From contig CAITIX010000318.1 in the NCBI GenBank assembly GCA_903892565.1, positions 18,935 through 82,934 of the forward strand: 64,000 nt of DNA. Reading direction: 5' to 3'. A program made the translations under genes and the position numbers. The stretch's first letter is position 1. Each line of letters opens with the position of its first letter. Below the pieces are notes generated by a model. It ran no database searches and was not told where the DNA came from. It saw nothing but the letters and a program-made list of their open reading frames with translations. This DNA comes from an uncultured Acidobacteriia bacterium. Its GTDB lineage: Bacteria > Acidobacteriota > Terriglobia > Bryobacterales > Bryobacteraceae. Positions 746 through 59,573 of the stretch are shown one piece after another.

Positions 746-1696
746 GTGAAATGTTCTGTCGTCGTCCCGCTTTACAATAAGGCTGCCACGGTCGCGCGGT
801 CGCTCGAATCCATTCGTTCTCAAACCTTCCAGGACTTTGAAGTCATTGTCGTGGATGATGGGTCCACGGACGCCAGTGCGGAGTGCGCAGAACTGTTTCT
901 GAAGAGCGCGGATGGGCGATTTCGCATGGTTCGTCAGGCGAATGCGGGGCCGGGGGCTGCTCGAAATCGTGGAATCGCTGAGGCCAAGGGGGAGTTGTTG
1001 GCCTTTCTGGACGCCGACGACGAATGGCTCCCTGAGTTTTTGGAACGAGCCGTATCGCGTCTCGCCGAGACTGGTGCGGCAGGGATTGCGATGGCTTGGT
1101 TTGATGAGCCGGGACATCGATCTTCGTGCGAGTTATTTCTGAAAATGGGGCTAAAGACCGGGATTTGTACCATGCGTCCCGATACGGACCCCCGCGTTCT
1201 TGTTGCCATGCTCGTTCTGATGTGGCCCTGCACCACGATTGTGCGGAGGGACGTCATCGAAGCTTATGGTGGCTTCTATGAGAAGCGGTGCAAGTTTTCG
1301 GAAGACGCACATCTCTGGCTGAAAGTTTGTTTGAATCATCCGGTTTACGTGTATTTGGAGGAAGGCGCGCTGTTCCATCGCGAGAACTCGGATTTAAGCG
1401 GCAACTATCGCTCCATGCGTGACGTGGAGCCTTTCCTCACGGATCCTGGCGACGTGCGCGCTGTGTGCCCGCCGCAGCTTTCCCGGCTTTTGGACGAGGT
1501 GCTTGCCATACGAGCCATGAAGACGGCATGCGTAATGGCGTATTGGGGACAATGGCGGAACGCTCTCGCGCTGCGGCATGAATTTGCGATTCCGGGAGCA
1601 TGGCGGCTGCCGTGGTTTTTTCCGTCTCTCTTGGCGGCCTCACCACTCGGAGGATTAGCCGGCGCGGGACTCCGGGCATTGCGAGGCACGAATTGA
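746..1696 (+). CDS. Family 2 (GT-A) glycosyltransferase
   Basis: The 316-residue protein has the GT2 N-terminal pattern: SVVVPLYNKAATVARSLESI at the start, VIVVDDGSTDAS around residue 33, QANAGPGAARNRGI around residue 63, and the metal-binding LDADDEW near residue 90. It should transfer a sugar from a nucleotide-sugar to a glycan or lipid acceptor at the cytoplasmic face. Acceptor and sugar cannot be read from sequence. Start is GTG at 746, immediately giving the first beta strand. Its TGA (1694-1696) overlaps the start of the next glycosyltransferase, so the two are probably translationally coupled and act on the same glycan. Confidence 0.9.
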   Translation: MKCSVVVPLYNKAATVARSLESIRSQTFQDFEVIVVDDGSTDASAECAELFLKSADGRFRMVRQANAGPGAARNRGIAEAKGELLAFLDADDEWLPEFLERAVSRLAETGAAGIAMAWFDEPGHRSSCELFLKMGLKTGICTMRPDTDPRVLVAMLVLMWPCTTIVRRDVIEAYGGFYEKRCKFSEDAHLWLKVCLNHPVYVYLEEGALFHRENSDLSGNYRSMRDVEPFLTDPGDVRAVCPPQLSRLLDEVLAIRAMKTACVMAYWGQWRNALALRHEFAIPGAWRLPWFFPSLLAASPLGGLAGAGLRALRGTN

Positions 1697-2832
1697 AATC
1701 TTCTGCGCCGCTATCCATTCTCGCAATCCTGGAAGCGACTTCCCTCACCGGACCGGCCAAGAACTTGCTGCAATTTGCGGAATCCGTGCGCGCAGGAACG
1801 CCGGAATCCGCGCTCGTCCAATTGCGCGTGGCGACGTATCGCAGGCCGGGCCAACCGGAGACGAACGACTTTCTCTCCGCGGCAGCGAACATCGGCCTCC
1901 CTTGCGAAACCATCCACGAAAACAGCGCGCTAGACTTCGGGACGTTGTTGCAAATTCGAGCCTTAGTGCGACGCTTTCGGCCGGATGTCATTCAGACGCA
2001 TAACGTAAAAACCGCATTTTTATTGAAACTTTCTGGCGCCCAGCGAAGCGCATGCTGGATTCATTGGCATCACGGCTACACCGCACCGACGCGCAAACAG
2101 GTTTTCTACAATCAATTGGATCGTTTCTCCGTGCGGAGCGCCAAGCAAGTTGTTACCGTAACGTCCGCGTTCCTTCCGGAGCTAGAGAAGTTTGGCGTGC
2201 CGCGCAGCCGCATCGAAGTCATCCCGAACGCGATTCGCCCGGACTGGGGTGGAGCACCCACCGGCATTTCTGCCAGCGCCACCTCTGCGGAAAAAACGAT
2301 TCTCGCAATCGGCAGATTGTCGAAAGAGAAAGCGCACGCGGACTTGATCGAAGCTCTCTCCCTTCTGAAGGCGGATTCGCAACTTCCACGGCTGCGTCTG
2401 CTGTTGGTGGGGGACGGACACGAGCGGCAGAGTTTGGAAGATCTCGCGGCGTCCAAGGACGTCCCGATTACTTTCGCGGGGCACGTCACGGATGTTTGTC
2501 CTCTGTATCGGCAAGCGGATGTGTTCGTGTTGCCGTCTTTGTCGGAAGGTTCGCCCAACGTGCTGATCGAAGCGATGGCGGCAGGTAAGGCGATTGTTGC
2601 GACGTCGGTTGGGGGCGTTCCAGAGACAGTGACGAACGATGTCGAAGCGTTGCTGGTTCCTCCGGGTAAGCCGGTCGCTCTCGCGGCTGCGATCGCTCGC
2701 TTGTTGCGCGATCCGGAGTTGGCGCAAAGATTGTCCGACGCCGCGCAAGCTCGGGTGCGTCGCGAATTTCTTCCCGAAGCACGCGCGCGGAGGATCATCG
2801 AACTTTACCGCCACGTGCTCGACCGCGCATAG
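1693..2832 (+). CDS. Family 4 (GT-B) glycosyltransferase
   Basis: The protein begins LKSSAPLSILAILEATSLTG from TTG at 1693, which overlaps the TGA of the preceding gene. The track start at 1600 would add 31 residues lying entirely inside that gene and lacking family character. GT-B features: the GPAKNLL loop near the N-terminus, QTHNVKTAF in the donor-free domain, ILAIGRLSKEKAHADLIEAL opening the C-terminal Rossmann domain, LLVGDGHE, FAGHVTDV, and the donor-site signature LSEGSPNVLIEAMAAGKAIVAT. Length (379 aa) is normal for GT4. Probably works with the upstream GT2 enzyme on a surface glycan. Confidence 0.88.
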   Translation: MKSSAPLSILAILEATSLTGPAKNLLQFAESVRAGTPESALVQLRVATYRRPGQPETNDFLSAAANIGLPCETIHENSALDFGTLLQIRALVRRFRPDVIQTHNVKTAFLLKLSGAQRSACWIHWHHGYTAPTRKQVFYNQLDRFSVRSAKQVVTVTSAFLPELEKFGVPRSRIEVIPNAIRPDWGGAPTGISASATSAEKTILAIGRLSKEKAHADLIEALSLLKADSQLPRLRLLLVGDGHERQSLEDLAASKDVPITFAGHVTDVCPLYRQADVFVLPSLSEGSPNVLIEAMAAGKAIVATSVGGVPETVTNDVEALLVPPGKPVALAAAIARLLRDPELAQRLSDAAQARVRREFLPEARARRIIELYRHVLDRA

Positions 2833-2865: not shown

Positions 2866-3846
2866 TCAGACAAGCGTGTCTTGGAAACTCTGGATATAGC
2901 GTCCGAACGCGATGACGGCGAGCCACAGGACCAGAGAACTAGCGGCGATGAATTTGGCGGGCGCAGCAGCGTCTTCCCCGGCTTTCACGTGCTCGATCCC
3001 GCTGAAAATGTCCGTCAAGTAAAACGCTGCCGCGTTCAATCCGAGCAGCATCAGAGCCAGGAGCTTGCACCAAACCGCGATGTCGAACGTGTAATACGCG
3101 GGCATGCCGATCAGCACCAACATCCCGGTGGCGACGTTGATGCCCAAGCCTAGAAGTGCCCACGGGATAAATTTATGAATCGGTGCGATCGGGAGTTGCT
3201 TCGCGAAACCCAGGATCCGTAGATTCAGTGCGCCCACGGTTCCGACAATCAGCGTCAGTCCGATGAAATGCAGGTCCATCAAAAGAGCCGTTTCAAACTT
3301 GCTAAGCCCCACGGCCTTGATGAATTTGTCGGGCGCGGGTTCGAAGGCTTGCAGGATCGAGCCGACGCCGGTCTCTTGCAACGGCGACTGCTTGCTATCG
3401 GAGACTTCGGGATGGCGAATGTCCCCTCCGGTGTTCCCCGTTCGCGCCATAAGGCCTGCGGTCAGTAACGAAAACAGCAGGACCGCGAGAACGTTTCCAC
3501 GGGACGTGCGGGCGTCCCGATGCAATTGCCACAGACCCACGATCGCGAAGGCACCCGTGATCTCCATGAACCAGAAGGAAAGCATCGCGGAACCCAGGTG
3601 TCGCTGAATCACGGGCCCTGACACTCCGGCTTGGTGCGCGATATTTACTTGAGCGCCGAAGCCGCTCACGAAGGTGGGAATCGTCACCAACGCAACGCCT
3701 GCAAAAATGATGAGGCTCGAGCGCCGCAGGTCGCTGTTCTTTCCGCAGAACGAAATCAGGAATAGGGCAATGGCGATGATCGTCCCCAGAACGGGAACGT
3801 GGTTTAACAGCAAATGCAGATGTGCGAAATTGATGTGCAAGTCCAT
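2866..3846 (-). CDS. Polytopic membrane protein, DUF2231-like plus DUF6644-like halves
   Basis: A 326-residue membrane protein with about eight hydrophobic segments. The N-terminal half starts MDLHINFAHLHLLLNHVPVL, His-rich and resembling DUF2231-type membrane proteins. The C-terminal half (ALLMDLHFIGLTLIVGTVGA, LRILGFAKQLPIAPIHKF, then GINVATGMLVLIGMP) is clearly homologous to the whole of the neighbouring 170-residue protein (LLHNLGLALAVGTSIFVGFR, LLGFAPDLPIAPLKKF). Conserved His residues at the starts of helices could be haem b or metal ligands, but that is inference. It is the last gene of the minus-strand cluster and converges with the glycosyltransferase operon. Function unknown. Confidence 0.75.
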   Translation of the reverse strand: MDLHINFAHLHLLLNHVPVLGTIIAIALFLISFCGKNSDLRRSSLIIFAGVALVTIPTFVSGFGAQVNIAHQAGVSGPVIQRHLGSAMLSFWFMEITGAFAIVGLWQLHRDARTSRGNVLAVLLFSLLTAGLMARTGNTGGDIRHPEVSDSKQSPLQETGVGSILQAFEPAPDKFIKAVGLSKFETALLMDLHFIGLTLIVGTVGALNLRILGFAKQLPIAPIHKFIPWALLGLGINVATGMLVLIGMPAYYTFDIAVWCKLLALMLLGLNAAAFYLTDIFSGIEHVKAGEDAAAPAKFIAASSLVLWLAVIAFGRYIQSFQDTLV

Positions 3847-3860
3847 CGTCTACGTTCTCC

Positions 3861-4373
3861 CTACCCGGTCTGTCCATACAGCAGATATTTGAATGTGTAG
3901 GCTAACAGGCGGCCTGCCGAGACGGCGCAAAGCCATACCACCAGTGCCCGGGTCGCCAAAGACCTTCCTTGAGCCAAGGTGGCGGCCTCGCCCGCGCTTT
4001 CGCAATTGGAAACTACTTTCTCCATCCGCAGCATGATCCACACGCCAGTTGCGATCAGTGCCAGCTTTACGTAAAACAGTGGATTCGTCAGGGCCTTGGT
4101 GGGATACGAAAGTAAGAGCACGAGGCCGGATGCGCCGCTGATCCAGGCTCCGGCCCACAAGATCTTGAAGAACTTTTTCAGAGGTGCGATCGGCAGGTCC
4201 GGTGCAAAGCCCAAGAGGCGAAAGCCGACGAATATGCTGGTTCCTACGGCGAGCGCCAAGCCGAGGTTATGCAGTAAGAGGAAAAAATAAAACCCAAAGG
4301 GCGATTCCGTCTCGCGCAGCCAGGTGCTGATGCCGCTATCTTCAATCGTGCCTAGAAACAGGGGTACTTCCAT
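3861..4373 (-). CDS. Four-helix membrane protein, DUF6644-like
   Basis: A 170-residue protein with four predicted transmembrane segments (FYFFLLLHNLGLALAVGT; ILWAGAWISGASGLVLLL; FYVKLALIATGVWIML; LVVWLCAVSAGRLLAYT). It matches the C-terminal half of the next gene in the motif LLGFAxxLPIAPxxKF and the following Gly-rich helix, so one is a duplication of the other's module. It lies 14 bases upstream of that gene, same strand, and very likely forms a complex with it. The His in LLLHNLGLA is shared (MDLHFIGLT) and is the most likely ligand-binding residue. Family assignment is from memory of the motif. Confidence 0.72.
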   Translation of the reverse strand: MEVPLFLGTIEDSGISTWLRETESPFGFYFFLLLHNLGLALAVGTSIFVGFRLLGFAPDLPIAPLKKFFKILWAGAWISGASGLVLLLSYPTKALTNPLFYVKLALIATGVWIMLRMEKVVSNCESAGEAATLAQGRSLATRALVVWLCAVSAGRLLAYTFKYLLYGQTG

Positions 4374-4487
4374 AGCGCCTCCGTGACCCTTTCCCCTCTG
4401 GACTCAACCAGAAAAACCACGATTGGATAGCGTATCACCGATTTGGTCCTCTTGTCGCGAGGCTCACGTGAAGTGCAGCGTGAGCGA

Positions 4488-5294
4488 CTAGCGGGCGGCC
4501 TTCGGCGCTTTCTCTACGACGTCAGGAACCGGAAATACAACGTAAGGATTGTTTGCGTCGACTTTGCTCACGTTCAAGGTGAGGACGGTCGCTCCGCCTC
4601 GCTTTTGCACGATGCGCGCGGGGAACATGACATCCGTCGCGATCTCGCCGAGATCTTTGTAGCCCGCATACGTGGTTTCCATGTTCACGTTGCCGAGCGC
4701 AGCATTCGTGCCTGTCGCTTCGACTTTCTCTACTTCACTTTTCGCGTTGAGTGTCATCTTCACGGAGATGCCCGTCAGCGGTGCGGTGAGCGGAAAGCTG
4801 ACTACGGTCATCCCGCCTTCTTTCGATACTTTGGCGTCCCCTTTATTCGCGACGGCCGCACGTTCGGCCGCCTTGAGAACGCCGTGCGGCGTGGTCCACA
4901 TCTGTAGTGAGCGCTCGGCGAGAGTGGCTGGCAGCGGGGTAGCCGTCGAACCGGGGATGAATCCGCCACCGGGGACGCTTTCATTCCAGGAAAAATCTCC
5001 GTTGATTACCTCGATCTGTCGAGTGCCTCCGGTGGGTGAAACGTCAATGCGCATGGCTGGCGTGCGATAGCTGTAACTCGCGTGATAGTTGATCGCCACG
5101 GGTGGGCCACCTGCTGCGCGCGTGCCTGTGGCCCAGACTTCCATCGTATTGATCGCGTCGATACGTTGTGGTCCGCGAATCATGCCGAGCGCGTATTCGG
5201 CGGCTTTTATTGTCGCGAGCGCGTCCTGTGCGTGCACGGAGGGCGCGGCGAGTGCCGCGAACATCACTAGAGAGCTGAGGCGAAGTCGATTCAT
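4488..5294 (-). CDS. Exported protein, LolA/LppX-like fold suspected
   Basis: The 268-residue product begins with a clear signal peptide (MNRLRLSSLVMFAALAAPSVHAQ, cleavage after HAQ or HA). The mature part alternates beta strands with phrases such as YSYRTPAMRIDV, IEVINGDFSWNE, VKMTLNAKSEVEKVEATGTN, METTYAGYKDLGEIATDVMFPARIVQ. This style is seen in LolA/LppX-like half-barrels that bind lipids or hydrophobic ligands; the fold call is inference. It sits 33 bases after the third tandem paralogue and 114 bases before the DUF6644-like membrane protein, all on one strand, consistent with co-transcription. Confidence 0.72.
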   Translation of the reverse strand: MNRLRLSSLVMFAALAAPSVHAQDALATIKAAEYALGMIRGPQRIDAINTMEVWATGTRAAGGPPVAINYHASYSYRTPAMRIDVSPTGGTRQIEVINGDFSWNESVPGGGFIPGSTATPLPATLAERSLQMWTTPHGVLKAAERAAVANKGDAKVSKEGGMTVVSFPLTAPLTGISVKMTLNAKSEVEKVEATGTNAALGNVNMETTYAGYKDLGEIATDVMFPARIVQKRGGATVLTLNVSKVDANNPYVVFPVPDVVEKAPKAAR

Positions 5295-5327
5295 GTGAAG
5301 GGTCCTTTATCCAGTGATGGGCGTTTT

Positions 5328-6143
5328 CTAGTGATGATCTTTGGTGACAAGGTGCGAGAGATCGAGCTCCATGCAAGGGAGCGATTCGGCGAGCTCGGCT
5401 TTGGGATCCGGATTCAATGTGATCATGCGCCGATTCATCGTCCACGGCTTCAGCAGTACGTCGGAATCTTCGATCGTGGCTTCCCACGTAATGGCGTCGC
5501 CGTCGCGATGCAGCCGCTCGATGACGTGCAAATTCTCGCTATGGAAATATCCGCCGATATCGAGCCAGCTGGTGTCATTGAATCCGATGCTATCCACGAC
5601 GAGCGTGTCGCCCTCCCAATGGCCGACGGATTCACCCTTCCATGTCCCGTCCAGATCCTGCAGAGTTGTGTGCGCACGGCCATCCACCGGAATCACGCGG
5701 TAGGGATCGCCCCAACCCTGCGCCGGCGGACTGACGTAGAGGAACACGAGCTCCTTCGAGGTCTGCACGATCTTCATCGGCGGGCCGATGCGCGGAACGC
5801 CGCCGGGCATGCATCCATACGAAGGGTCTTGATTGTTGCCGTCCTGGTCGAGTTGTTGGATCTTTTCCCAGAACTCGGGTTTATAGATGGGCTTGTTTTG
5901 ATCGGCGCGCCGGACCAAGGCGCCGTCCCGTTCGAAATTCAAGAGACTTCCGCCACGCGAGGCCAGGTTCGCGGTGAGAGGGTCGGCGTCTTTCAAAAAA
6001 GGATTGAAGGCGTTGCCGTTCCATAGGCCGTTGAGATCCGGATGGCCGTCGGCCAGCAGCGGGGTGGATGCCTTGGAGCTTTGCGCGAGCGACAATGCTG
6101 CCCCAAAACACAGCGCCAAAGCGAGAGATGCAGCACGATTCAT
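5328..6143 (-). CDS. Exported protein of an uncharacterised family, tandem paralogue 1
   Basis: Start moved to ATG 6143, giving the signal peptide MNRAASLALALCFGAALSLAQ and only one base after the stop of the upstream paralogue. The mature part reads ADGHPDLNGLWNG, FERDGALVRRADQNKPIY, CMPGGVPRIGPPMKIVQT, GTWKGESVGHWEGDTLVVDS, IGFNDTSWLDIGGYFHSEN and ends CMELDLSHLVTKDHH. These blocks are shared with the next two genes. No enzyme family that I can name matches. The shared Cys and the terminal His pair are candidates for metal or redox chemistry. It acts outside the cytoplasm. Confidence 0.8.
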   Translation of the reverse strand: MNRAASLALALCFGAALSLAQSSKASTPLLADGHPDLNGLWNGNAFNPFLKDADPLTANLASRGGSLLNFERDGALVRRADQNKPIYKPEFWEKIQQLDQDGNNQDPSYGCMPGGVPRIGPPMKIVQTSKELVFLYVSPPAQGWGDPYRVIPVDGRAHTTLQDLDGTWKGESVGHWEGDTLVVDSIGFNDTSWLDIGGYFHSENLHVIERLHRDGDAITWEATIEDSDVLLKPWTMNRRMITLNPDPKAELAESLPCMELDLSHLVTKDHH

Positions 6144-6144
6144 G

Positions 6145-6984
6145 CTAGTGGTGTTCCTTCGTGACAAGATGCGATAGATCAAGTTCTACACAGGGTAGCG
6201 TTTCCACGAGCCAAGCCTTCGGATCCGCATTCATGCGCTGCACGCGGGGGTTCATAACCCACGGCTTCATCAGCACATCGGGATCCTCGACGGTGGCCTG
6301 CCAGATCAGCGAGTCGCCATCGCGCCGCACACGTTCGATCACATGCATGTTCTCGCTGTGGAAGTAGCCGCCGTAATCGAGCCAGCTCGTGTCGTTGAAT
6401 CCAATGGTATCGATCACCAGCGTGTCGCCGTCCCAGCGGCCGATGGATTCGCCCTTCCACGTTCCGTCGAGATCCTGGATCGGCGTGTGTGTGCGGCCAT
6501 CCGTGGGAATGACGCGGTACAGATCGCCCCAGCCACGTGCGGCAGGCGCGACATATAGGAAAAGGATTTCCTTCGCCGTTTGCACAATCTTATCGGGAGG
6601 CCCCATGCGCGGGACTCCGGCGGGCATGCATCCGTAAGACGGATCTGCCTCGTTGCCGTTCTGATCGAGCTCCTGTACTTTCCCCCAGAATTCCGGTTTG
6701 TAGAGAGGGCGGTTCGGATCGGCGCGGCGGATGAGCGCTCCATCGCGTTCATAGTTGACCAGGCTACCGTCGCGCGAAGGAAGATTCGTAATCGTGGGAT
6801 CGGCTGAGGCAATGTGAGGGCCGGCTACTGTGGTGGCGTTCCACAAGCCGTTGAGATCCGGATGGCCATCCGCCATGCGCGGAACCGCAGGCGAGGTTTC
6901 CGTTTTCGCATTCGGACGCTGCGCCGCCATGGATGGCAACGCCACTATCGCGACGATCACGACGACAATCACGGCGGCCTTCAT
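6145..6984 (-). CDS. Exported protein of the same uncharacterised family, tandem paralogue 2
   Basis: From ATG 6984 the product starts MKAAVIVVVIVAIVALPSMA, an export signal. The track start is TTG at 6999. An in-frame CTG at 7026, seven bases after a GAGGAG ribosome site, is also possible. Mature blocks ADGHPDLNGLWNA, CMPAGVPRMGPPDKIVQT, GTWKGESIGRWDGDTLVIDT, IGFNDTSWLDYGGYFHSEN and the tail CVELDLSHLVTKEHH make it a close paralogue of both neighbours. It is separated from paralogue 1 by one base, so the two are co-translated. No known catalytic motif is seen. Confidence 0.8.
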   Translation of the reverse strand: MKAAVIVVVIVAIVALPSMAAQRPNAKTETSPAVPRMADGHPDLNGLWNATTVAGPHIASADPTITNLPSRDGSLVNYERDGALIRRADPNRPLYKPEFWGKVQELDQNGNEADPSYGCMPAGVPRMGPPDKIVQTAKEILFLYVAPAARGWGDLYRVIPTDGRTHTPIQDLDGTWKGESIGRWDGDTLVIDTIGFNDTSWLDYGGYFHSENMHVIERVRRDGDSLIWQATVEDPDVLMKPWVMNPRVQRMNADPKAWLVETLPCVELDLSHLVTKEHH

Positions 6985-7080
6985 GGCAACGAAGGGCAAA
7001 CGAAACTGGAGCGCTGTGCGGATCAGGGTAAAACTCCTCTGAACAGTTTATACGGAACTGCGAGCGTTGGCCGAACTGGG

Positions 7081-7896
7081 CTAATGATGTTCTCGTGTCA
7101 CCAGATGCGACAGATCCCGCTCGCTGCACGGCAGCGTTTCTTCGAGCGTCGCTTTCGGATCCGGGTTGCGCGCCAACTCCCGTGTGTCCATCGCCCAGGG
7201 CTTCACTAGAACCTCGGGATCCTCTACCGTCGCCTGCCACGTCAAGGTATCTCCGTTGCGACGCAGGCGCTCAATGACGCGCATATTCTCGCTGTGAAAA
7301 TAGCCGCCGATATCGAGCCAGCTCGTGTCGTTAAAGCCAATCGTGTCGATCACCATCGTGTCTCCTTCCCAGTGTCCGATCGATTCGCCCTTCCATGTCC
7401 CGTCCAGATCCTTGAGCGGCGTGTGCGCGCGGCCGTCGAGCGAAACCACACGGTAGGTATCTTGCGGGCCCGCGTAAAAGAGCAGCAATTCGTCCGGTGT
7501 CTGCACAATCTTCATGGGAGGTCCCATGCGCGGAACTCCCAGCGGCATGCATCGATACGAGGGATCCTCCTCGTTGCCATCCTGATCGAGCTTCTGTACT
7601 TTCTCCCAGAACTCGGGCCGATAGATGGGCTTGTTCGGCTCCATGCGCCGGATCAACGCATTGTCACGTTCGAAATTGACAAGCGTGCCTTCGCGGGCGG
7701 GAAGCAACAGGCCGACTTTTTCTCCGGAGGAAAGAGTTCGCGGGACAATCGCTCCGTTCCAAACGCCGCTCAGGTTGGGAACTGCCGTCGCTTTGCGGGG
7801 CGCAGTTGCGGACGTCTGCGAGAGCGCAGGCGCGGCCAAGGCGCAAGCAGCGATGAAGCATCGCAGAAGCGAACGATTTAAAACCCGGTAGTGCAA
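7081..7896 (-). CDS. Exported protein of the same uncharacterised family, tandem paralogue 3
   Basis: TTG at 7896 is preferred over the track's GTG at 7914 because a GGGAGGG ribosome site lies six bases before it. The product then begins LHYRVLNRSLLRCFIAACAL and carries an export signal ending near APALSQ. Shared blocks: CMPLGVPRMGPPMKIVQT, GTWKGESIGHWEGDTMVIDT, IGFNDTSWLDIGGYFHSEN, tail CSERDLSHLVTREHH. It lacks the ADGHPDLNGLW opening in exact form (PNLSGVWNG instead) and is the most diverged copy. It follows the DUF6152-like gene by 33 bases. Confidence 0.8.
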   Translation of the reverse strand: MHYRVLNRSLLRCFIAACALAAPALSQTSATAPRKATAVPNLSGVWNGAIVPRTLSSGEKVGLLLPAREGTLVNFERDNALIRRMEPNKPIYRPEFWEKVQKLDQDGNEEDPSYRCMPLGVPRMGPPMKIVQTPDELLLFYAGPQDTYRVVSLDGRAHTPLKDLDGTWKGESIGHWEGDTMVIDTIGFNDTSWLDIGGYFHSENMRVIERLRRNGDTLTWQATVEDPEVLVKPWAMDTRELARNPDPKATLEETLPCSERDLSHLVTREHH

Positions 7897-7929
7897 GTGT
7901 GGCCCTCCCGGCACCGGTGCCCGTGCGAC

Positions 7930-8337
7930 TTACTTCGCGTTCGGATCGTCGGTCCAAATGGTAAAGACGCGGCCATCGGACATGGTAATTGTCTTGACGA
8001 GGCCAAGGTCGGTGCCGTCTTTGGCGAGAACGCCGTTGACCGTGATCGTGTCGCCTGCTTTGAGGCCGCCCCGATCACCGCGGCTGATTCCCGCTTTGCG
8101 CAGCGCGCCGGGGCCGGCCATTTCGAAGGCCCACTTCTTGACCTTGCCGGAAGGATCCTTCACATCAATAAAGAGGTATGAGTGCGGATTGATCCACTCC
8201 ACTTTGGTGACCGTGCCGTTGAGCTGGATGGGTTTTTCCAAATCAAACTGCGCCTGCACGGAATGGTGCGCCAGCAGTGGCACCGCGAAAATACAAAGCC
8301 CACCCAATGTCAAAAGCCGCGTAAGTCGCAAAATCAT
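7930..8337 (-). CDS. DUF6152-like small exported protein
   Basis: ATG 8337 is chosen because a GAGG lies nine bases upstream, whereas the track's TTG (8346) abuts the purine run. The product opens MILRLTRLLTLGGLCIFAVP and is cut around LLAHHS. The mature chain (about 110 aa) has HHSVQAQFDLEKPIQLNGTV, KVEWINPHSYLFIDVKD and GDTITVNGVLAKDG, an OB-fold-like beta pattern. AHHS plus EWxNPH is the pattern I associate with DUF6152 proteins. It is the first gene of the seven-gene minus-strand cluster and divergent from the nuclease operon, so the cluster promoter should lie in 8338-8391. Role unknown. Confidence 0.8.
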   Translation of the reverse strand: MILRLTRLLTLGGLCIFAVPLLAHHSVQAQFDLEKPIQLNGTVTKVEWINPHSYLFIDVKDPSGKVKKWAFEMAGPGALRKAGISRGDRGGLKAGDTITVNGVLAKDGTDLGLVKTITMSDGRVFTIWTDDPNAK

Positions 8338-8391: not shown

Positions 8392-11037
8392 ATGCGCGTC
8401 CGTTGCGACTGTCATTATATAGGACAGTTTCGCGAAACGAACCTAGTGCTCTCTTCGAATCCCATCGCACTCACGCCCGGAACCATCGTCGCCGCTAGCG
8501 CGCAAGCAAGCCGCCAGTTGCATCGCGATTACGATCGTGCGCGCCAGGCCGAGGGCCGCGCCGTGTGGGACTCGCCCGATATTTTGCCGCGCGACGCCTG
8601 GATGCGCAGAATGTGGCAGGAGTGCGCGTGGAAAGATCCTTCCAAGACGCCGGTCCTGTTGACGCGCTGGCAGGAACTCGCGTTATGGGAAGAATCCATC
8701 GCGTCGATCGAGCGGGACATTCTGCTGAACTCCAGTGCGACGGCCGGGATGGCGTCGCAAGCCTGGGAGCTCCTTCATTCGTGGGTTTATATGGGGGAAG
8801 CGCCGCTCGATTTCACGGCGTTCGACGCGTCCGAAGACAGCGAGGCGTTTCGTTCGTGGATGTCCCGCGTGCGCAAGAAGCTCCGTGAGCGGGATTGGAT
8901 TACACGCGCGGAGTTGCCCGATGCCTTGCGTGCGCGCGTTAGCTTAGACGTGGCGTTAGCCGCCGTGCCCCTGACGCTTTTTGGATTCGACGAACTTTCT
9001 CCGGCCGATCGTCGCTTGTTCGATGCTTGCGGCGTTCACGAAGTTGCGCCACTACCCTTGCACTCGCACGTCGCACAGATGGCTTGTCGCGATGCCGCCG
9101 ATGAATGGACCAGGGCCGCCGCTTGGGCGCGCAAAACGCTGGAGCGACAACCTGGCGCACAAATCGGGATACTCATTCCGGGCTTGGCTCCGGTGGTTGC
9201 CACCGTGGAGCGAATCTTCGACGACGTCCTGCATCCGTCGTTTGGATTTGCAGAGCAGGACTGCGGTGGTCGCAAAGCGTTTGCTATTTCCGCGGGCGAA
9301 TCGTTGGCCACCTGCCCGATGATCGCGGCGGCATTATCGATTCTGCGCCTCGTCAACGGATTGCCGCGCGAAGAAGCGGCCCCATTGTGGAGATCGCCAT
9401 TCCTGGGTATCGACGCGGAAGAAGGCGCAAAGCTCGACGTGGAGCTTCGGCTTAAGAATGCGGACGACATTCGTTTGACGAGGCATCCCGTGGAGCGCCG
9501 CTTTCCCGCGCTGGCCGCGGCAGCGCGAGCACTGCCGGAACGCGCAAAGCCCAGCGCGTGGAGTAGCGAATTCTCACGGCTGCTGAAGTCCGCCGGCTGG
9601 CCTGGCCCCCGCACGCTCACGTCGCAGGAATATCAAACGCTGGAAGCGTGGAAAGACTTGCTCTCGGAGTTCGCGCAACTGGACATCGTGATGGATTCCC
9701 TTTCCTGCGCATCCGCCGTATCGCGGCTGGAGCGAATGGCCGCGGCCGGCACTGCGCCAGCGCATGCGGACTCGGAGCCCGTGCAGATCCTCGATCTGGC
9801 GCATTCGGAAGGCACGCGCTTTGATGCGTTGTGGATCGCCGGATTACACGCAGCGGCTTGGCCGCAGCGCGCCAAACCGAATCCGTTCCTTCCGCTGGCC
9901 CTGCAGCGGCGGATGGGAATGCCGGGATCTTCCGCCGATCGCGAATTTGAAGCGGCGAGGCGTGTTGTCAATCGGCTGTTTTACTCGGCCTCTGAAGTGG
10001 TTTGCAGCTATCCGGCGCACGCGGCAGGTGAGGATCGGCAACCCAGTCCATTCATAGCGTTGCTGCCTTCGTTGCAGGAGTCCTATGCGGCCGATACTGC
10101 CGCCAGCCGTGTGTTCGCGATGGCGCCGCGCCTGGAACCCAGGCCCGTGGAAGCGAATCTGTCACTGCCGGAAGGCGAAGTGCAACGCGGAGGATCCCAG
10201 GTCCTGGCCGATCAGTCTGCCTGTCCTTTCCGTGCGTTCGCGGTTCATCGTCTGCGCGCCAAAGAGTTGGGCGAGCCGGATGTCGGCTTGGCTGCCTTGG
10301 ATCGCGGGAACCTGGCCCATCGCGTGTTGCAGCTTCTGTGGGACGATCTGCAAACGCAGGCGAATCTCCTGGCGTTGCCGTCGGATGAACTGGAGCGCCG
10401 GAGTCGCTCGTACGTTGAGCGAGCGTTGCAGGAATACGTCGCGAAACAGGAAGCCTCTGTTGCACTCGAAACGTTTCGGCACTTGGAGCAGGGGCGCTTG
10501 GAAAGCCTTGTGCGGAGGTGGCTGGAGGAAGTAGAAATAAAGCGCCCGCCCTTTCGCGTCATTGATCGCGAGAAAGACAGGCGCGTGACTGTCGAGGGGT
10601 TGCAGTTGGAACTTCGCGTCGATCGCATCGATCACTATGATGGCGACGGTTCCGGTGCCGGCGCGCACGCGATCATCGACTACAAAACGTCGAAACAGCT
10701 CAGCACAAATATGTGGCTCGGGGATCGTCCGGAAGCGCCGCAACTTCCGCTATATGCCGTCACCAGCCTGACCAGCGGGCTGTTGATCTCGGAAATTGCG
10801 TTTGGACAGCTGACCACAGGTTCCGTGGCTTGGAAATCGGTGCAGGGCGCCGAGCTCCAGCAGCATCTTCCGCAATGGCGCGCCGTAGTGCATAAGCTCG
10901 CGCGGGATTTCCGGCAAGGCCACGCCGAGGTGGATCCACGAGAGAAGCCGAATCCCTGCGAACGATGCAAGCTTCATGCGCTCTGTCGCGTGCGGGAATG
11001 GAAGCTGGAATCGCTCGAGGAGGCTGACGATGAGTAG
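8392..11037 (+). CDS. AddB-like helicase/PD-(D/E)XK nuclease, probable DNA repair protein
   Basis: An 881-residue protein of the 'probable DNA repair protein' type that pairs with an AddA/RecB-like helicase. N-terminal part (ALTPGTIVAASAQASRQLH onward) is the inactivated helicase-like region. Around residues 460-480 is VQILDLAHSEGTRFDALWIA, the AddB counterpart of helicase motif V. The C-terminal PD-(D/E)XK nuclease shows FRAFAVHRL, LELRVDRIDHY and AIIDYKTSK, then the iron-sulphur-type cysteines NPCERCKLHALCRV. The real start may be GTG 8446, since residues 1-18 look non-coding and overlap a possible -10 element. It overlaps the next gene by eight bases. Processes double-strand DNA ends for recombination. 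Confidence 0.85.
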   Translation: MRVRCDCHYIGQFRETNLVLSSNPIALTPGTIVAASAQASRQLHRDYDRARQAEGRAVWDSPDILPRDAWMRRMWQECAWKDPSKTPVLLTRWQELALWEESIASIERDILLNSSATAGMASQAWELLHSWVYMGEAPLDFTAFDASEDSEAFRSWMSRVRKKLRERDWITRAELPDALRARVSLDVALAAVPLTLFGFDELSPADRRLFDACGVHEVAPLPLHSHVAQMACRDAADEWTRAAAWARKTLERQPGAQIGILIPGLAPVVATVERIFDDVLHPSFGFAEQDCGGRKAFAISAGESLATCPMIAAALSILRLVNGLPREEAAPLWRSPFLGIDAEEGAKLDVELRLKNADDIRLTRHPVERRFPALAAAARALPERAKPSAWSSEFSRLLKSAGWPGPRTLTSQEYQTLEAWKDLLSEFAQLDIVMDSLSCASAVSRLERMAAAGTAPAHADSEPVQILDLAHSEGTRFDALWIAGLHAAAWPQRAKPNPFLPLALQRRMGMPGSSADREFEAARRVVNRLFYSASEVVCSYPAHAAGEDRQPSPFIALLPSLQESYAADTAASRVFAMAPRLEPRPVEANLSLPEGEVQRGGSQVLADQSACPFRAFAVHRLRAKELGEPDVGLAALDRGNLAHRVLQLLWDDLQTQANLLALPSDELERRSRSYVERALQEYVAKQEASVALETFRHLEQGRLESLVRRWLEEVEIKRPPFRVIDREKDRRVTVEGLQLELRVDRIDHYDGDGSGAGAHAIIDYKTSKQLSTNMWLGDRPEAPQLPLYAVTSLTSGLLISEIAFGQLTTGSVAWKSVQGAELQQHLPQWRAVVHKLARDFRQGHAEVDPREKPNPCERCKLHALCRVREWKLESLEEADDE

Positions 11038-14000
11038 TCCCGCTTATCGCCCTTCGCCTGATGAGGCCCAGCGCAGGGAAGCAATCGATCCCCACAAATC
11101 GTTCCTGGTGCAGGCGCCCGCAGGCTCTGGCAAAACGGAATTGTTGATGCAACGGTTCCTGTGCTTGCTTGCGCAAGTGGAGCGCCCCGAGTCCATCGTT
11201 GCGATCACCTTCACGCGCAAAGCCGCCGGCGAAATGGTGCAGCGGATCCTCAAGGCCTTACGCGATGCGCGGGACGAAGCGCAGCCAGGAGATCGATCCC
11301 GTGAGCGTAAGCCGCATGAACAGTTCACTCGTTCGCTCGCCCAAGCCGCATTGCAGAGGGATCGCGAACAAGGGTGGAATTTATTGGATCATCCCGCGCG
11401 CTTGCGCGTGCAGACGATCGATTCGCTGTGCGTCGCGATCGCCGCCGAGATGCCCTGGCTTGCGCGTCTGGGCGGAATGCCCGGCATTGAGGAAAAGGCT
11501 GGCGATCTCTATAACGAAGCGGCCAGGCGCACCGTTTTACTCGCGGGCGACTCCGAGCATGGCGGAGCGATTTCCGGACTGCTCCGCCAGGTGGACAACG
11601 ATGCGGCGCGTGCTCGTGATCTGATCGCCTCGCAGCTGCGTACGCGCGAGCAGTGGATGCCGCTCTTCATTGCCGCGTCGCAGCAGTCTGCCCGCGAACT
11701 ATTGGAAGAAGCCTTGCGGCGCCTGTCGGAACGAACGTGCGCAGCGGCCGCTCGGCTGGTTCCGCTGGAAACGCGAGAACAGTGGATGGATCTCGCGCGC
11801 TTCAAGGGCCACCCGGTAGTGTCTTGGCCCACGGAGCGAGTGGAGTGGGAGCCGCTTCTTGAGCTCGTCCTAAAAAAAGACGGCAGCTTGCGCAAGCGCT
11901 TTACGACGACCGAAGGTTTTCCGTCCGGCAATCCTGTGCGCAAACAGCAAGTCAACGCGCTCGCGGAGACGCTGGCCAGTATTCCGGGACTGCCGGATGC
12001 GCTCGCCGATCTTCGTGACGTTCCGCCCGTGCGCTATTCCGACCAGCAATGGCAGGCCACGTTGGCTCTCCTCGATTCGTTGAAATTGGCCGTCGGGCAA
12101 TTGCGCGAAGTCTTCCGTGAACAAGGGGTCGCCGATTTTGCGGAGATCGGAATGGCTGCGCGCCACGCTCTCGGCGATGACGAGCAAGCCACAGAGCTCG
12201 CCTTCCATTTGGATTCGCGCATCGATCATTTACTGGTTGACGAATTTCAAGACACGTCACGCGGGCAGCTCGATTTGGTTTGTCGACTCATCGCGAATTG
12301 GACGCCGGGGGATGGGCGCACGCTTTTCCTGGTGGGCGATCCCATGCAGTCGATTTATCGCTTCCGCCAAGCTGAGGTCGGCATCTTTTGGGAGACGCGA
12401 GAACGCGGCATCGGTCACTTGCGGCCCAATCCATTGAGCTTGATCTCGAACTATCGTTCGCATCCGGGCCTCGTAGGCCGCGTGAACGCAATCTTTGAAC
12501 AGCTGTTTCCAGAGCAGGAGGATTCGGCGGTCGGCGCGGTCCCGTTTCATGCGTCGGAGGCTTTTAACACGGTGGTCCGCGGCGGAGTAACGGTTCACGG
12601 ATTCCTCACGGGCGAGGATCACAGGGAAGCGGAACGTGTTGTGGCGCTAATCCGGCAGGCGCAAGAGCAAGCGCCGGAACAAACTATCGCCGTTCTGGTG
12701 CGCGCCCGCACGCATTTGCCGTGGATTGTGGATGCGCTGAAGTCCGCCCAGATGCCATTTCAAGCCGTGGATATTGATCCACTCGCGCAGCGGACTGTCG
12801 TTTTGGATTTGCTCGCGTTGACGCGTGCGATGTTGCATCGCGCCGATCGCATCGCTTGGCTTGCGGTGTTGCGTGCGCCGTGGTGCGGCCTGCAACTCGT
12901 CGATCTGGAAAAGCTGAGCCGCGGAGAAACATCCATTTGGAGTGCTCTCCAAGATACGAGCGCTCTCACCGAAGATGGACAGGCGCGGGCCGGCAAACTG
13001 CGCGATGTTTTGGGCGCCGCGTTTGAAGAGCGTGCGCGCTGGCCTCTGCGCCGCTGGGTGGAGCGCGTGTGGATCGAACTCGGAGGTCCTGCATGCCTTG
13101 CGGCCGATGCCAGTGCATTTGCAGATGCCCGTGCCTACTTCGATCATTTGGAAACGTATCAATCCGGGTCCGATCTGGTGGACTTGCCGCAGTTCGAGGC
13201 CGGGCTTGCCGAGCTCTATGCGCAGCCCGATCCTCATGCGACTGAGCGCCTACAGATCATGACGATTCACAAAGCCAAGGGCCTGGAATTCGATACCGTG
13301 ATCGTCGCCGGCCTGGGACGCACGGAGAAGGCCGATGATCGGCAGCTTGTCTTGTTTCACGAATGGGGCGAGGCGGACGAAGTCGAGCGTTTGATCGCTC
13401 CGATTCCGGAGCAAAGCGTGCCGGAGCCGGACGCCAAAGATCCGCTATACAGCTATTTAAGGGACCAGGACAAGCGCAAGAGCAGACTGGAAAGAGTCCG
13501 CTTGTTGTACGTGGCGGCCACGCGTGCGAAGCAGAACCTGCATTTTTTGGGGCAAGTGAAAGTCAGTAAGAAAGGGCTGTCGCCGGATTCGCGATCCATG
13601 CTCGCGGATTTGTGGCGCGCGTTGACCGAAGAAGAGCGTGCACGCTTCGCGGCGTCCAACGATGTTGCGTCAAGTGCAGTCGCGCCCGCCGGATCCATCG
13701 ACCTTGACGCGAATCCTGAACCGTCCATTCGCTTGTCGCGGTTGCCTCGTTCCTGGATGCCGCCCCTGCTGCCCGCAAACTTGTCCCAAGGGCCTCCGTT
13801 GCAACGCGCGCACGAGCCTACGTTCGAATGGGTCGGCGATAGCCTGCGCATCGCGGGCACCGTGGTGCACGAGCTGTTGCGGCGAGTTCCCGATGGACGC
13901 CGCGCCTCGGACACGGCCATGGACATTCCGGCACCGTCAGTCCTGCGCCGTTTGCTGGCGCACGCAGGCGTGCTCCCCTCGGAGATGACGATGACCCTGC

Positions 14001-14353
14001 GCCGCGTGACCGAAGCGCTCGGTCGCATGCAAAAGAGTGACCGCGCCCGTTGGATTCTCGAAGATCATCGGGACGCTCGCGCGGAGTACGCCATCAGCGG
14101 CGTCGAGAAGGGCGAATTCATCCGAGGCAAGGTGGATCGCACGTTCATCGATCAGCACGGCACGCGTTGGATTGTCGATTTCAAGACCAGTATTCACGAA
14201 GGCGGCGCGCTGGAGGATTTTCTCGATGAACAACAACGTCGCTATCGGGAGCAATTGGAGCGCTATGCGCGATTGCTTGCGCCCCTGGGGCAGCCTGTCC
14301 GCGTGGGCCTGTATTTCCCGCTGCTCGACGAATGGCGGGAGTGGGCCCCTTGA
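11030..14353 (+). CDS. AddA/RecB-like UvrD-family helicase-nuclease
   Basis: ATG 11030 has GGAGG seven bases upstream and removes 18 track residues that lie in the previous gene. The 1107-residue protein has Walker A APAGSGKTELLMQRF near residue 32, motif Ia ITFTRKAAGEMVQR, Walker B LLVDEFQDTSRGQ, motif III FLVGDPMQSIYRFRQAEV, motif IV SNYRSHPGL, motif V MTIHKAKGLEFDTVIVAGL and motif VI RVRLLYVAATRAKQN. The C-terminal nuclease shows RGKVDRTFIDQHGTRWIVDF followed by KTS. It forms an ATP-dependent end-resecting complex with the overlapping upstream protein, replacing RecBCD. Same-family members are sometimes labelled UvrD/Rep helicase only. Confidence 0.92.
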   Translation: MSSPAYRPSPDEAQRREAIDPHKSFLVQAPAGSGKTELLMQRFLCLLAQVERPESIVAITFTRKAAGEMVQRILKALRDARDEAQPGDRSRERKPHEQFTRSLAQAALQRDREQGWNLLDHPARLRVQTIDSLCVAIAAEMPWLARLGGMPGIEEKAGDLYNEAARRTVLLAGDSEHGGAISGLLRQVDNDAARARDLIASQLRTREQWMPLFIAASQQSARELLEEALRRLSERTCAAAARLVPLETREQWMDLARFKGHPVVSWPTERVEWEPLLELVLKKDGSLRKRFTTTEGFPSGNPVRKQQVNALAETLASIPGLPDALADLRDVPPVRYSDQQWQATLALLDSLKLAVGQLREVFREQGVADFAEIGMAARHALGDDEQATELAFHLDSRIDHLLVDEFQDTSRGQLDLVCRLIANWTPGDGRTLFLVGDPMQSIYRFRQAEVGIFWETRERGIGHLRPNPLSLISNYRSHPGLVGRVNAIFEQLFPEQEDSAVGAVPFHASEAFNTVVRGGVTVHGFLTGEDHREAERVVALIRQAQEQAPEQTIAVLVRARTHLPWIVDALKSAQMPFQAVDIDPLAQRTVVLDLLALTRAMLHRADRIAWLAVLRAPWCGLQLVDLEKLSRGETSIWSALQDTSALTEDGQARAGKLRDVLGAAFEERARWPLRRWVERVWIELGGPACLAADASAFADARAYFDHLETYQSGSDLVDLPQFEAGLAELYAQPDPHATERLQIMTIHKAKGLEFDTVIVAGLGRTEKADDRQLVLFHEWGEADEVERLIAPIPEQSVPEPDAKDPLYSYLRDQDKRKSRLERVRLLYVAATRAKQNLHFLGQVKVSKKGLSPDSRSMLADLWRALTEEERARFAASNDVASSAVAPAGSIDLDANPEPSIRLSRLPRSWMPPLLPANLSQGPPLQRAHEPTFEWVGDSLRIAGTVVHELLRRVPDGRRASDTAMDIPAPSVLRRLLAHAGVLPSEMTMTLRRVTEALGRMQKSDRARWILEDHRDARAEYAISGVEKGEFIRGKVDRTFIDQHGTRWIVDFKTSIHEGGALEDFLDEQQRRYREQLERYARLLAPLGQPVRVGLYFPLLDEWREWAP

Positions 14354-40651: not shown

Positions 40652-41890
40652 CTACGCGAACAACCGCGCCTTGAACCACTCCGCCAATCCGCGCGCCACC
40701 CGTGGACCCTGCTTGCTCCCGCGGCCCATGTGCGCTCCATCGGCGATGATCCGCACCGTCTTCGGATCTCCCGTCTCAATCAACAGCGGAATTTCCTGCG
40801 GCGATATCCACGGATCCTTCGCGCCGTTATACGCGAACATCGGCGCGCACGGTTTATCCAGCCATCCTTGCGCTTCGAGCGACATCGCGGGAGCCGTCTT
40901 CACCAGCTCCGCATAATCCTTCACACCGTTCGAATAAATCATCGATTCCAGAAACGGCCAGAAGTAATCCTTTTCCGTGATCAAGCCCTTGAGCCACGGC
41001 TCCTGATACGTGTAATGGATGGGACCACCCGCCATGACTGACGCCTTCAAGCGCTTCGCTTCCACGTACGCCATCTTGCCGCCCCAATATCCCGCGTAGC
41101 TGTTTCCTCGGAAGCCCATCCGTTTGCCGTCCAGATCCGGCCGCCCCAGCAGATACTCCATCGTCGCGATGTACAGCTTTTCCGTATCCGGCTTGTTGAA
41201 CACGGGACATTCGCCCGCGCCCGGCATGTCCATGGAAAACGCCGCCGCGCCGAGGCTCAAAATGTCGTTGGTGTTGCGCTCCTCCTTATACACATCCACG
41301 CCGCCTGTTGCGATCACGATCGGCGGGCGTGTCACATCCTTCGGCTTGCGCAGGTAGCCGATGATTTCCTTGCCTTCGAACGGAATCGCGATGCGCTCCA
41401 TTGCCGGATCGAGCGATCGTGCGCCTTTTAAATAGTTCTCGATCGCCTTCTTATACGCGGCCTTCTTCGCCGGATGATTGATCACCGGAAATTTCGCGAT
41501 GCCGTAGTGCGCCGCCGCCTTGCGATACAACTTGTTCGCTTCGTCCAACTGGCCTTTCTTTTCGAGCTCGTCTGCTTGATGCTCGAACGGTTCGGCGAGC
41601 TTGGTCCACTCGGCAACCCACGGCTCGGCATCGAGCGACGTCAGTGTGTCGAAGATCCGCGCCACTTCTTTCGGATCGGCACCGCGTCCAACGAACTCCT
41701 GCGCGCGCATTTTCGCGCCTGCCGCATATCCCGGATCTTTGAACGGATTCACGCCCACGGGCCGCAAGATTGGGTTTTGGTCGGAAGACGCCGTCTGCGC
41801 CACGCCCTTCTGTGCGGCGGCCAGCGCTACACTTGCACCGGCAGCAAGTTCGATAAATCCACGGCGGGAAGGAGATTCGTTTGTAGACAT
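40652..41890 (-). CDS. Tat-exported alpha/beta hydrolase (FrsA/dipeptidyl-peptidase-like)
   Basis: ATG 41890, with AGGAG nine bases upstream, gives MSTNESPSRRGFIELAAGAS, a Tat signal peptide; the track start adds 33 residues without support. Catalytic alpha/beta-hydrolase features: oxyanion region PIVIATGGVDVYKEE, nucleophile in MGFRGNSYAGYWGG (GxSxG), acid in YNGAKDPWISPQE and His in IIADGAHMGRG. An N-terminal helical cap of about 150 residues (VARIFDTLTSLDAEPWVAEW onward) is typical of FrsA-like esterases. Substrate unknown. It is divergent from the Tat-exported flavoprotein gene with 107 bases between. Confidence 0.85.
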   Translation of the reverse strand: MSTNESPSRRGFIELAAGASVALAAAQKGVAQTASSDQNPILRPVGVNPFKDPGYAAGAKMRAQEFVGRGADPKEVARIFDTLTSLDAEPWVAEWTKLAEPFEHQADELEKKGQLDEANKLYRKAAAHYGIAKFPVINHPAKKAAYKKAIENYLKGARSLDPAMERIAIPFEGKEIIGYLRKPKDVTRPPIVIATGGVDVYKEERNTNDILSLGAAAFSMDMPGAGECPVFNKPDTEKLYIATMEYLLGRPDLDGKRMGFRGNSYAGYWGGKMAYVEAKRLKASVMAGGPIHYTYQEPWLKGLITEKDYFWPFLESMIYSNGVKDYAELVKTAPAMSLEAQGWLDKPCAPMFAYNGAKDPWISPQEIPLLIETGDPKTVRIIADGAHMGRGSKQGPRVARGLAEWFKARLFA

Positions 41891-41997
41891 GATCAGGAGC
41901 TCCTCACGGATTATGGCATATCGACTGAATACGCATGCTTCCGGGAATTGCCTGCAGTACCATGTCGTAGAGCACACGTCTCTCATCAATCATCGCC

Positions 41998-43641
41998 ATG
42001 CCCAAAAAAGTGAACAATTCCCGCCGCGATTTCTTTCGTAAGGGCGCCGCTGTAGGCGCAGGCGTTGCCGCGCTCGCCAGTGAATCGGAAGCCCAGAAGC
42101 TCCGCTACGATCAAACCGCCGACGTCGTCATCATCGGCGCCGGAGCCTCCGGCGTTCCGGCTGCGATCATGGCGCGCGATCAGGGAGCAACTGTTATCGT
42201 GATCGACGCGCATCACGACATTGGCGGCCATGCCATGGTCAGCGGCGGACGCATTCCCCTTGGCGGAGGCACGCGCCTACAGAAGAAATTCGGCATCGCG
42301 GATTCCGCCGATCAAGTTTTCCTCGACCACACCAGCGTCAAGAACAAGGAGTTCCGCTTCGGCGATCGCGAGCTCATTCGCATGTGGGCCGATGAAAACG
42401 CCGCCACGTTCGATTTTCTGCTCGATAACGGCGTGCTCTTTAATGAAGTCGCGCCGGAGATCGTCAACGGCGGATCGATTCCTCGCCTGTTCATCGCCGT
42501 GCCCTATTCCGACAACTTAAACGAAACCATCAACGGCAGTCCCGGCTCCGGCCTCATGCGCCACTTGGAAAAAAGCGCGCGCGCGAAAGGCGTCAAGTTT
42601 CTGTTGAAGCATCGTATGACGCGCCTGCACCGCGAAGCGTCCTCGGGACAAAACCCCGCCGGCCGCGTCACCGGACTCACGGCGTCTTTCGAAGGCAAAG
42701 AAGTTCACATTCAAGCGCGCCGCGGCGTCATCATCGCCACCGGAGGCCACACCGCGAACGTCGAATTCCGTCGTATGTTCGATCCTCGCTTGACCGACGA
42801 ATACCAAACCGCGGGCGAACCGTGGACCAAGCAGATGGCCGAAGGCGAACTCGCCGCCATGGACCTCGGCGCGTCCATGTGGGCTACGAACAACATTGCG
42901 AGCGAACGCGGCTACTCCATTACGAAGACCATCCACATTGGATGCAAGTACGGCTATCGCAATTTGAAGTGGGATCCGAAGAGCCCCATGTTCGATGGCG
43001 CGGGAGCCACCGGACTCACCGTCCGCAATTTTCAGGACCTCATCATGGTCAACCAAATCGGCCAGCGCTTCTGGAACGAAGTGGACGAGTCCTACGATTT
43101 CTTCAACGCCGCCCTCGGCACCAATGGCAACATGGGCAAGGAAGCCAAGCGCAACGGTGGCGGACCCATCTGGGCCATCTTTGATTCCGGCGCCGTGGAA
43201 CGCAATAAATGGGACCCGCGCCCTCCATATGTGGATCGCAGCGGCTATTTCTTCACTGCTGACACGATCGCGGAGCTCGCCGCGAAGATCGCGAATCCGT
43301 ATCAACTGCATCCCATGCCCTCTGCGGCGCTCGAAGACACCGTCAAGCGCTACAACTCTTTCGTCGACGCCGGAGGAGACGCGGACTTCAACAAGCCCGC
43401 GCCGAAATACAAAATCGAAAAAGGACCGTTCCACGCCGCGTGGTCCACGCCGATTCTGCACGATTGCCTCGCCGGCTTGCGCATCAACACCAAGTGCCAA
43501 GTTGTCGACATCCGCAGTAAAGTGATCCCCGGTTTGTACGCTTGCGGAGAATCCGCCGGAGGCTTCGCGCTGCACGGACTGCCTCGCGTAATTGTTTTCG
43601 GCCGCGTCGCAGGACGAGAAGCCGCGTTGGCAAAAGCCTAG
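41998..43641 (+). CDS. Tat-exported FAD-dependent oxidoreductase (fumarate reductase-like flavoprotein)
   Basis: A 547-residue flavoprotein. Tat motif NNSRRDFFRKGAAVGAGVAA at the N-terminus, FAD-binding ADVVIIGAGASGVPAAIMAR, then HDIGGHAMVSGGRIPLGGGT, and the C-terminal FAD signature CGESAGGFALHGLPRVIVFG. It belongs to the FAD_binding_2 family (fumarate reductase, ketosteroid dehydrogenase, urocanate reductase relatives). No cytochrome or FMN domain is fused, so electrons must come from a separate donor. Substrate not readable. The start ATG lacks a clear ribosome site. Confidence 0.87.
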   Translation: MPKKVNNSRRDFFRKGAAVGAGVAALASESEAQKLRYDQTADVVIIGAGASGVPAAIMARDQGATVIVIDAHHDIGGHAMVSGGRIPLGGGTRLQKKFGIADSADQVFLDHTSVKNKEFRFGDRELIRMWADENAATFDFLLDNGVLFNEVAPEIVNGGSIPRLFIAVPYSDNLNETINGSPGSGLMRHLEKSARAKGVKFLLKHRMTRLHREASSGQNPAGRVTGLTASFEGKEVHIQARRGVIIATGGHTANVEFRRMFDPRLTDEYQTAGEPWTKQMAEGELAAMDLGASMWATNNIASERGYSITKTIHIGCKYGYRNLKWDPKSPMFDGAGATGLTVRNFQDLIMVNQIGQRFWNEVDESYDFFNAALGTNGNMGKEAKRNGGGPIWAIFDSGAVERNKWDPRPPYVDRSGYFFTADTIAELAAKIANPYQLHPMPSAALEDTVKRYNSFVDAGGDADFNKPAPKYKIEKGPFHAAWSTPILHDCLAGLRINTKCQVVDIRSKVIPGLYACGESAGGFALHGLPRVIVFGRVAGREAALAKA

Positions 43642-59228: not shown

Positions 59229-59573
59229 GTTTACCGTATCGCCCTTTCCCCGTGGAATTCGAGCTATTTTCGTCGCGCGCCGCCGCCCGCATTTCAAGTC
59301 GTAGGACCGTGTGCCCCAAACGTACTGGGACGACGCGCGCAAGCGACTAGTCCCGAGTGCCAGAAAGATCTATGGTCGGGGCCATTTCCACAGCGCAAAC
59401 TAAAGTCCTAAGTGAGGTTTGTCCGGTGCAGCCGGGAGTTGGGAAATATTGATGGGTTACGAAAGGAAACGGCAAATCGCGCGCACATCGATGCCACGGG
59501 CCTCCAACGGGAGGGCTGAACGTATGTCCCTATTCTCGTGTCTGAATCCCCGAGCGCATTCGGAGCGTTGTTT

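Follow-up and report, generated by a model that had tools for sequence, protein, structure and literature searches.

A conserved, fused and co-expanding gene module of exported and membrane proteins, represented by a seven-gene acidobacterial locus

Background

The question raised by this locus is whether seven adjacent genes for exported and membrane proteins, several from families without assigned function, form one system, and what such a system might do. The window, which is the whole stretch of 64,000 nucleotides that was analysed, covers bases 18935-82934 of contig C318 in a 4.6 Mb assembly of a soil acidobacterium. A sequence-only reading had taken the seven genes for an undescribed multi-component envelope system, possibly redox- or metal-dependent and built around a tripled protein family, and had named a lack of co-occurrence of the families in other genomes as one result that would refute the proposal.

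Results

Seven consecutive minus-strand open reading frames run from 8337 to 2866 (Table 1) with gaps of 15, 96, 1, 33, 114 and 14 bases, as had been read from the sequence. The genes on both flanks are plus-strand and unrelated in kind, and therefore the seven genes form an isolated same-strand run. Translation of T-a may start at GTG 7914 or at TTG 7896. No cytochrome or hydrolase gene is present among the seven, and none of the seven proteins has a Pfam match to CopC, CopD or HupE. Elsewhere in the window, the open reading frame at 59538-60728 contains an extended Pro-Pro-Val-Thr repeat, and its C-terminus is sorting-like.

Table 1. Genes of the seven-gene run and its flanks (window positions)
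Feature	Position	Strand	Description	Basis
Gene 1, D	7930..8337	-	DUF6152 protein, 135 aa; signal peptide ending in Ala, then His-His-Ser, later Asn-Pro-His	PF19649, E=4e-27
Gene 2, T-a	7081..7914	-	Exported, T family; placed with group-5 acidobacterial T	64% identity to gene 3; tree
Gene 3, T-b	6145..6984	-	Exported, T family; has both family-invariant Cys	64-65% identity to genes 2 and 4; no Pfam, NCBIfam or PDB relative
Gene 4, T-c	5328..6143	-	Exported, T family; sister of T-b	65% identity to gene 3; tree
Gene 5, E	4488..5294	-	Exported; predicted LolA/LolB-like fold	AlphaFold model of E-T fusion relative, Foldseek
Gene 6, M	3861..4373	-	Membrane; related to second half of gene 7, DUF6644-like	BLASTP, E=3e-11
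Gene 7, N-M	2866..3846	-	Membrane; two four-helix bundles in the model, second half DUF6644-like	Model; DUF6644 21.7 bits, below cut-off
Flank	8392-11037 and 10976-14353	+	Nuclease/helicase-type pair	Judged from sequence
Flank	1600-2832	+	Glycosyltransferase-like open reading frame	

The first gene had been called DUF6152-like, and D is indeed a clear member of that family (94.5 bits against a cut-off of 27); the Pfam search also gave it a weak OB-fold match, and the D profile found chance-level matches only in the PDB. When a simple pattern rule was applied to 72 D proteins, the signal peptide, whose cleavage is predicted, stood directly before His-His in 69 of them, ending in Ala (68) or Ser (1), and the downstream Asn-Pro-His motif is conserved in the family (Pro in 100%, His in 98%). 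A histidine at the N-terminus after signal cleavage is a hallmark of histidine-brace metal sites, and the His-His that follows the Ala of the D signal peptide is a possible N-terminal metal site. DUF4198, identified through this hallmark, binds nickel, and DUF6152 is not named in those parts of the same paper that were covered (PMC12537917).

The description of the three T genes as tandem paralogues holds as far as similarity is concerned, since T-a and T-c are 64-65% identical to T-b, but a single triplication does not. In the tree, T-b and T-c are sisters (support 94/80) and T-a clusters with those of group-5 acidobacteria (99/90), which rules out a simple tandem triplication. Nor is it supported that the tripling is special to this locus; the genome holds approximately 95 T members and the three copies have two origins. 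The closest T relatives, at 65-71% identity, are chiefly from group 2 and group 5 acidobacteria, and the best T matches in congeners are open frames of 601-668 aa, the size of an E-T fusion, with 42-45% identity. A source outside the genus is possible for the seven-gene copy. All of 101 T proteins (100%) share two Cys, and no Pfam, NCBIfam or PDB relative was found for the family; neither the T nor the E profile matched the PDB, and a Pfam search with 40 T and 21 E members gave nothing relevant except a hydrolase domain in one fusion. T, E and M have no Pfam or NCBIfam model above cut-off.

AlphaFold was used to model an E-T fusion that occurs naturally at a Bryobacterales locus (L078; 79 sequences, mean pLDDT 79.8). 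Its E domain was well predicted, and the best PDB matches found for it by Foldseek were LolB, LprG and LolA, starting from E=1.8e-6 for LolB, all of which are carriers of lipoproteins or lipids. On the model of this relative, E is predicted to have a LolA/LolB-like fold. The T part has eight main strands, and a Foldseek match to a bile-acid-binding protein (3em0), which is weak (E=0.096) and for which the part of the fusion covered is not stated, hints at a barrel; T might be a small beta-barrel that a disulphide stabilises.

The last two genes had been read as homologous membrane proteins, and BLASTP does align M with the second half of N-M (Table 1). N-M itself falls below the DUF6644 cut-off of 27 bits, and M has no relevant Pfam match. 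The N-M model is confident (mean pLDDT 89), and a fold search with it against the PDB gave only unspecific helical matches, as the M profile gave matches only at chance level. The conserved histidines of N-M (H9, H11, H16, H83 and H145) all lie close to the side of the membrane that would be periplasmic by the positive-inside rule, given the distribution of charges. Within the genome, 23 of the 25 DUF6644 genes adjoin each other within 1 kb, whereas a D or T gene is rarely found at that distance, and M may therefore be less tightly tied to the module. A tandem DUF6644 pair is located on the plus strand at C318:13534-14511 of this genome (G000), about 5 kb before the window starts, and at another of its loci (L094, G000:C428:3362-6658) six DUF6644-type genes, two minus and four plus, lie close together near two T genes and a tannase gene.

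Starting from the window proteins, we delimited the families through repeated HMM searches at the level of domains, and a genome collection was scanned with T peptides, which makes T the bait and leaves only its partners to count as evidence. The resulting 41 loci span Acidobacteriota (groups 2, 5 and 6 and Bryobacterales), Caulobacterales, Rhodospirillales, one gammaproteobacterium and other Proteobacteria. D, T and E are no more than five genes apart in 25 of the 41 loci, M joins them in 14, at least one partner is present in 34, and E and T are fused as one protein in seven. When 60 Acidobacteriota genomes were drawn evenly, T and D were present in the same three, the own genome included. 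Across 41 relatives, the number of T candidates followed the number of D genes (Spearman 0.95); the T counts come from a first look at candidates, in which the noise floor is about 5-13. Copy numbers reach tens, perhaps 200, per genome in some relatives. Within the genus, D genes range from 1 to 73 per genome (G060-G081 compared with G000), a very fast gain and loss. The families thus occur together outside this genome, as the sequence-only reading would require, and its proposal that the exported and membrane proteins form a conserved multi-component envelope module is borne out by this co-occurrence.

The same association is found within the genome of the window. A search with T-b gave 99 matches, corresponding to about 95 genes in 4.6 Mb, together with 37 DUF6152 and 25 DUF6644 matches. 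A same-strand T gene lies within 1 kb of 23 of the 37 D genes, against a strand-specific expectation of 2.2% (binomial p ~5e-29). The assembly is broken into 454 contigs, so that these numbers are minimum values. Two genes of this genome encode D-T fusions, and one full-length protein of 522 aa is a T-T fusion. Its halves represent two sister subfamilies, which several loci encode as separate neighbouring genes.

Cytochromes and hydrolases are the other company of the module. Of the 16 genes for CytoC_RC-type cytochromes genome-wide, 15 have a D or T gene within 3 kb (p ~8e-14), and 14 of 116 D/T neighbours in this genome match CytoC_RC. Most CytoC_RC genes carry a C-terminal domain weakly similar to E-hydrolase proteins (9e-9). 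Fusions of T and of E to metallo-beta-lactamase-fold domains also occur, and in NCBIfam the hydrolase domains of these fusions often match "quinoprotein relay" hydrolases best, with scores below cut-off. A link to PQQ dehydrogenases was considered and rejected, since their genes show no enrichment around the module (3 of 20 within 3 kb, compared with 11% expected). One fusion to a metallo-beta-lactamase-fold hydrolase, with a T-like domain, is in the window itself at 61952-63808 on the minus strand; a similar fusion was seen by Pfam at locus L109, and L112 and L120 have T proteins that are close to it in length. Five further open reading frames of the window (50106-51014, 48805-49902, 51169-52707, 40652-41989 and 41998-43641) encode hydrolases or oxidoreductases, some with export signals, that comprise a metallo-hydrolase, an amidohydrolase, a tannase, a FrsA-like esterase and a FAD-dependent protein, perhaps for the breakdown of aromatic compounds.

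Discussion

We are confident that the seven genes represent a conserved gene module whose parts are fused with one another and expand together. Its function is a more tentative matter. The suggestion of redox or metal dependence made from the sequence has gained independent hints, namely the His-His N-terminus of D and the c-type cytochromes beside D and T, from which we infer an activity of this kind. In the mechanism that we tentatively favour, at somewhat below an even chance, the proteins would make up a periplasmic metal/redox module with swappable partners. The His-His at the mature N-terminus of D would, together with Asn-Pro-His, bind a metal ion that is probably copper, and T and E would bind small molecules of hydrophobic or aromatic character. 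These domains could hand the molecules to a partner that differs from copy to copy and may be the metal site on D, a cytochrome with two haems or a hydrolase of the metallo-beta-lactamase fold. The four-helix proteins M and N-M would serve as the membrane anchor and would transfer electrons or metal across the inner membrane. With many copies, a genome might then have a repertoire tuned to different substrates.

The same parts could serve as a carrier system for hydrophobic molecules or lipids that involves no redox chemistry, in which E would act like LolA/LolB, T would be a receptor or a second carrier, M and N-M would be the inner-membrane partner and D a structural OB-fold subunit. The predicted fold of E, the E-T fusions and the membrane proteins beside E, T and D in 14 of 41 loci are consistent with such a system; however, there is no LolCDE-type ABC transporter among the seven genes to serve as a partner, and the cytochromes beside D and T and the conserved His-His of D would be left unexplained. 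We consider it unlikely, at about one chance in a few.

The conserved His-His with which mature D is predicted to begin, together with the His cluster on the predicted periplasmic side of N-M, might also point to a system for metal (copper) uptake or sequestration resembling CopC/CopD or the N-terminal-His "anglerases", and other DUF families with an N-terminal His are described as metal-binding in the covered parts of PMC12537917. Nevertheless, the absence of CopC, CopD and HupE matches argues against it, and 37 D and about 95 T genes in one genome, or 73 D genes in one relative, exceed what metal homeostasis would seem to need, so that we regard this explanation as quite improbable. That the families have no joint function and were duplicated and kept together by chance or by recent tandem copying, as the swing from 1 to 73 D copies within one genus and the tandem T copies might suggest, is very unlikely, being already disfavoured by a gene order kept between phyla (Acidobacteriota and Proteobacteria) and further by the domain fusions, the matching presence and absence and the strongly correlated counts.

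Returning to the periplasmic metal/redox module, we can put forward a broader version, possible and yet somewhat unlikely in its full extent. It would be a new kind of modular periplasmic oxidative system in which an OB-fold metalloprotein with an N-terminal His-His is combined with interchangeable substrate-binding domains, T and E, that could be attached to a cytochrome, a hydrolase or one another. Some soil bacteria would have amplified it to tens and perhaps as many as 200 copies to cover a range of substrates, following a SusCD-like logic with redox chemistry. In any case, a family that lacks a Pfam model and has approximately 95 members in a genome of 4.6 Mb leaves a large gap in our view of soil bacteria. 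Should D prove to be a metalloprotein, and T and E to bind substrates, a sizeable part of the exported proteome of these organisms would gain a testable role, and DUF6152, DUF6644, T and E could be annotated jointly.

Comparison with known systems

The expectation that the system is undescribed agrees with our literature search, in which no paper was found for DUF6152, DUF6644, the T motif or the module, and the covered part of a paper on duplication in Solibacter (PMC3174227) does not mention the family. D belongs clearly to DUF6152 (PF19649), a family without assigned function for which the His-His N-terminus and the partnership with T and E were not found described in the literature searched. 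D may resemble N-terminal-His metalloproteins (CopC, LPMO, DUF4198, DUF6702 and the anglerases; PMC12537917, PMC10952591) in a signal peptide predicted to leave His-1 and in a further conserved His, whereas it differs from them in its weak OB-fold match in place of their folds, in having His-His first and in its partners. The second half of N-M resembles DUF6644 (PF20349) and the first half weakly DUF2231 (PF09990), both matches being under the Pfam cut-offs and both families without assigned function. Quinoprotein relay hydrolases (TIGR04558/TIGR04559) score best or near best against the hydrolase domains fused to T or E, but these matches are far below the curated cut-offs and such proteins are not among the seven genes. 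E shares a predicted fold with the LolA/LolB carriers, in contrast to which it has no sequence match to any solved structure and no LolCDE partner in the cluster. Within the scope of our searches, no described system corresponds to the assembly, and its parts appear to be of known kinds: N-terminal-His metal sites, LolA-type folds and two-haem cytochromes.
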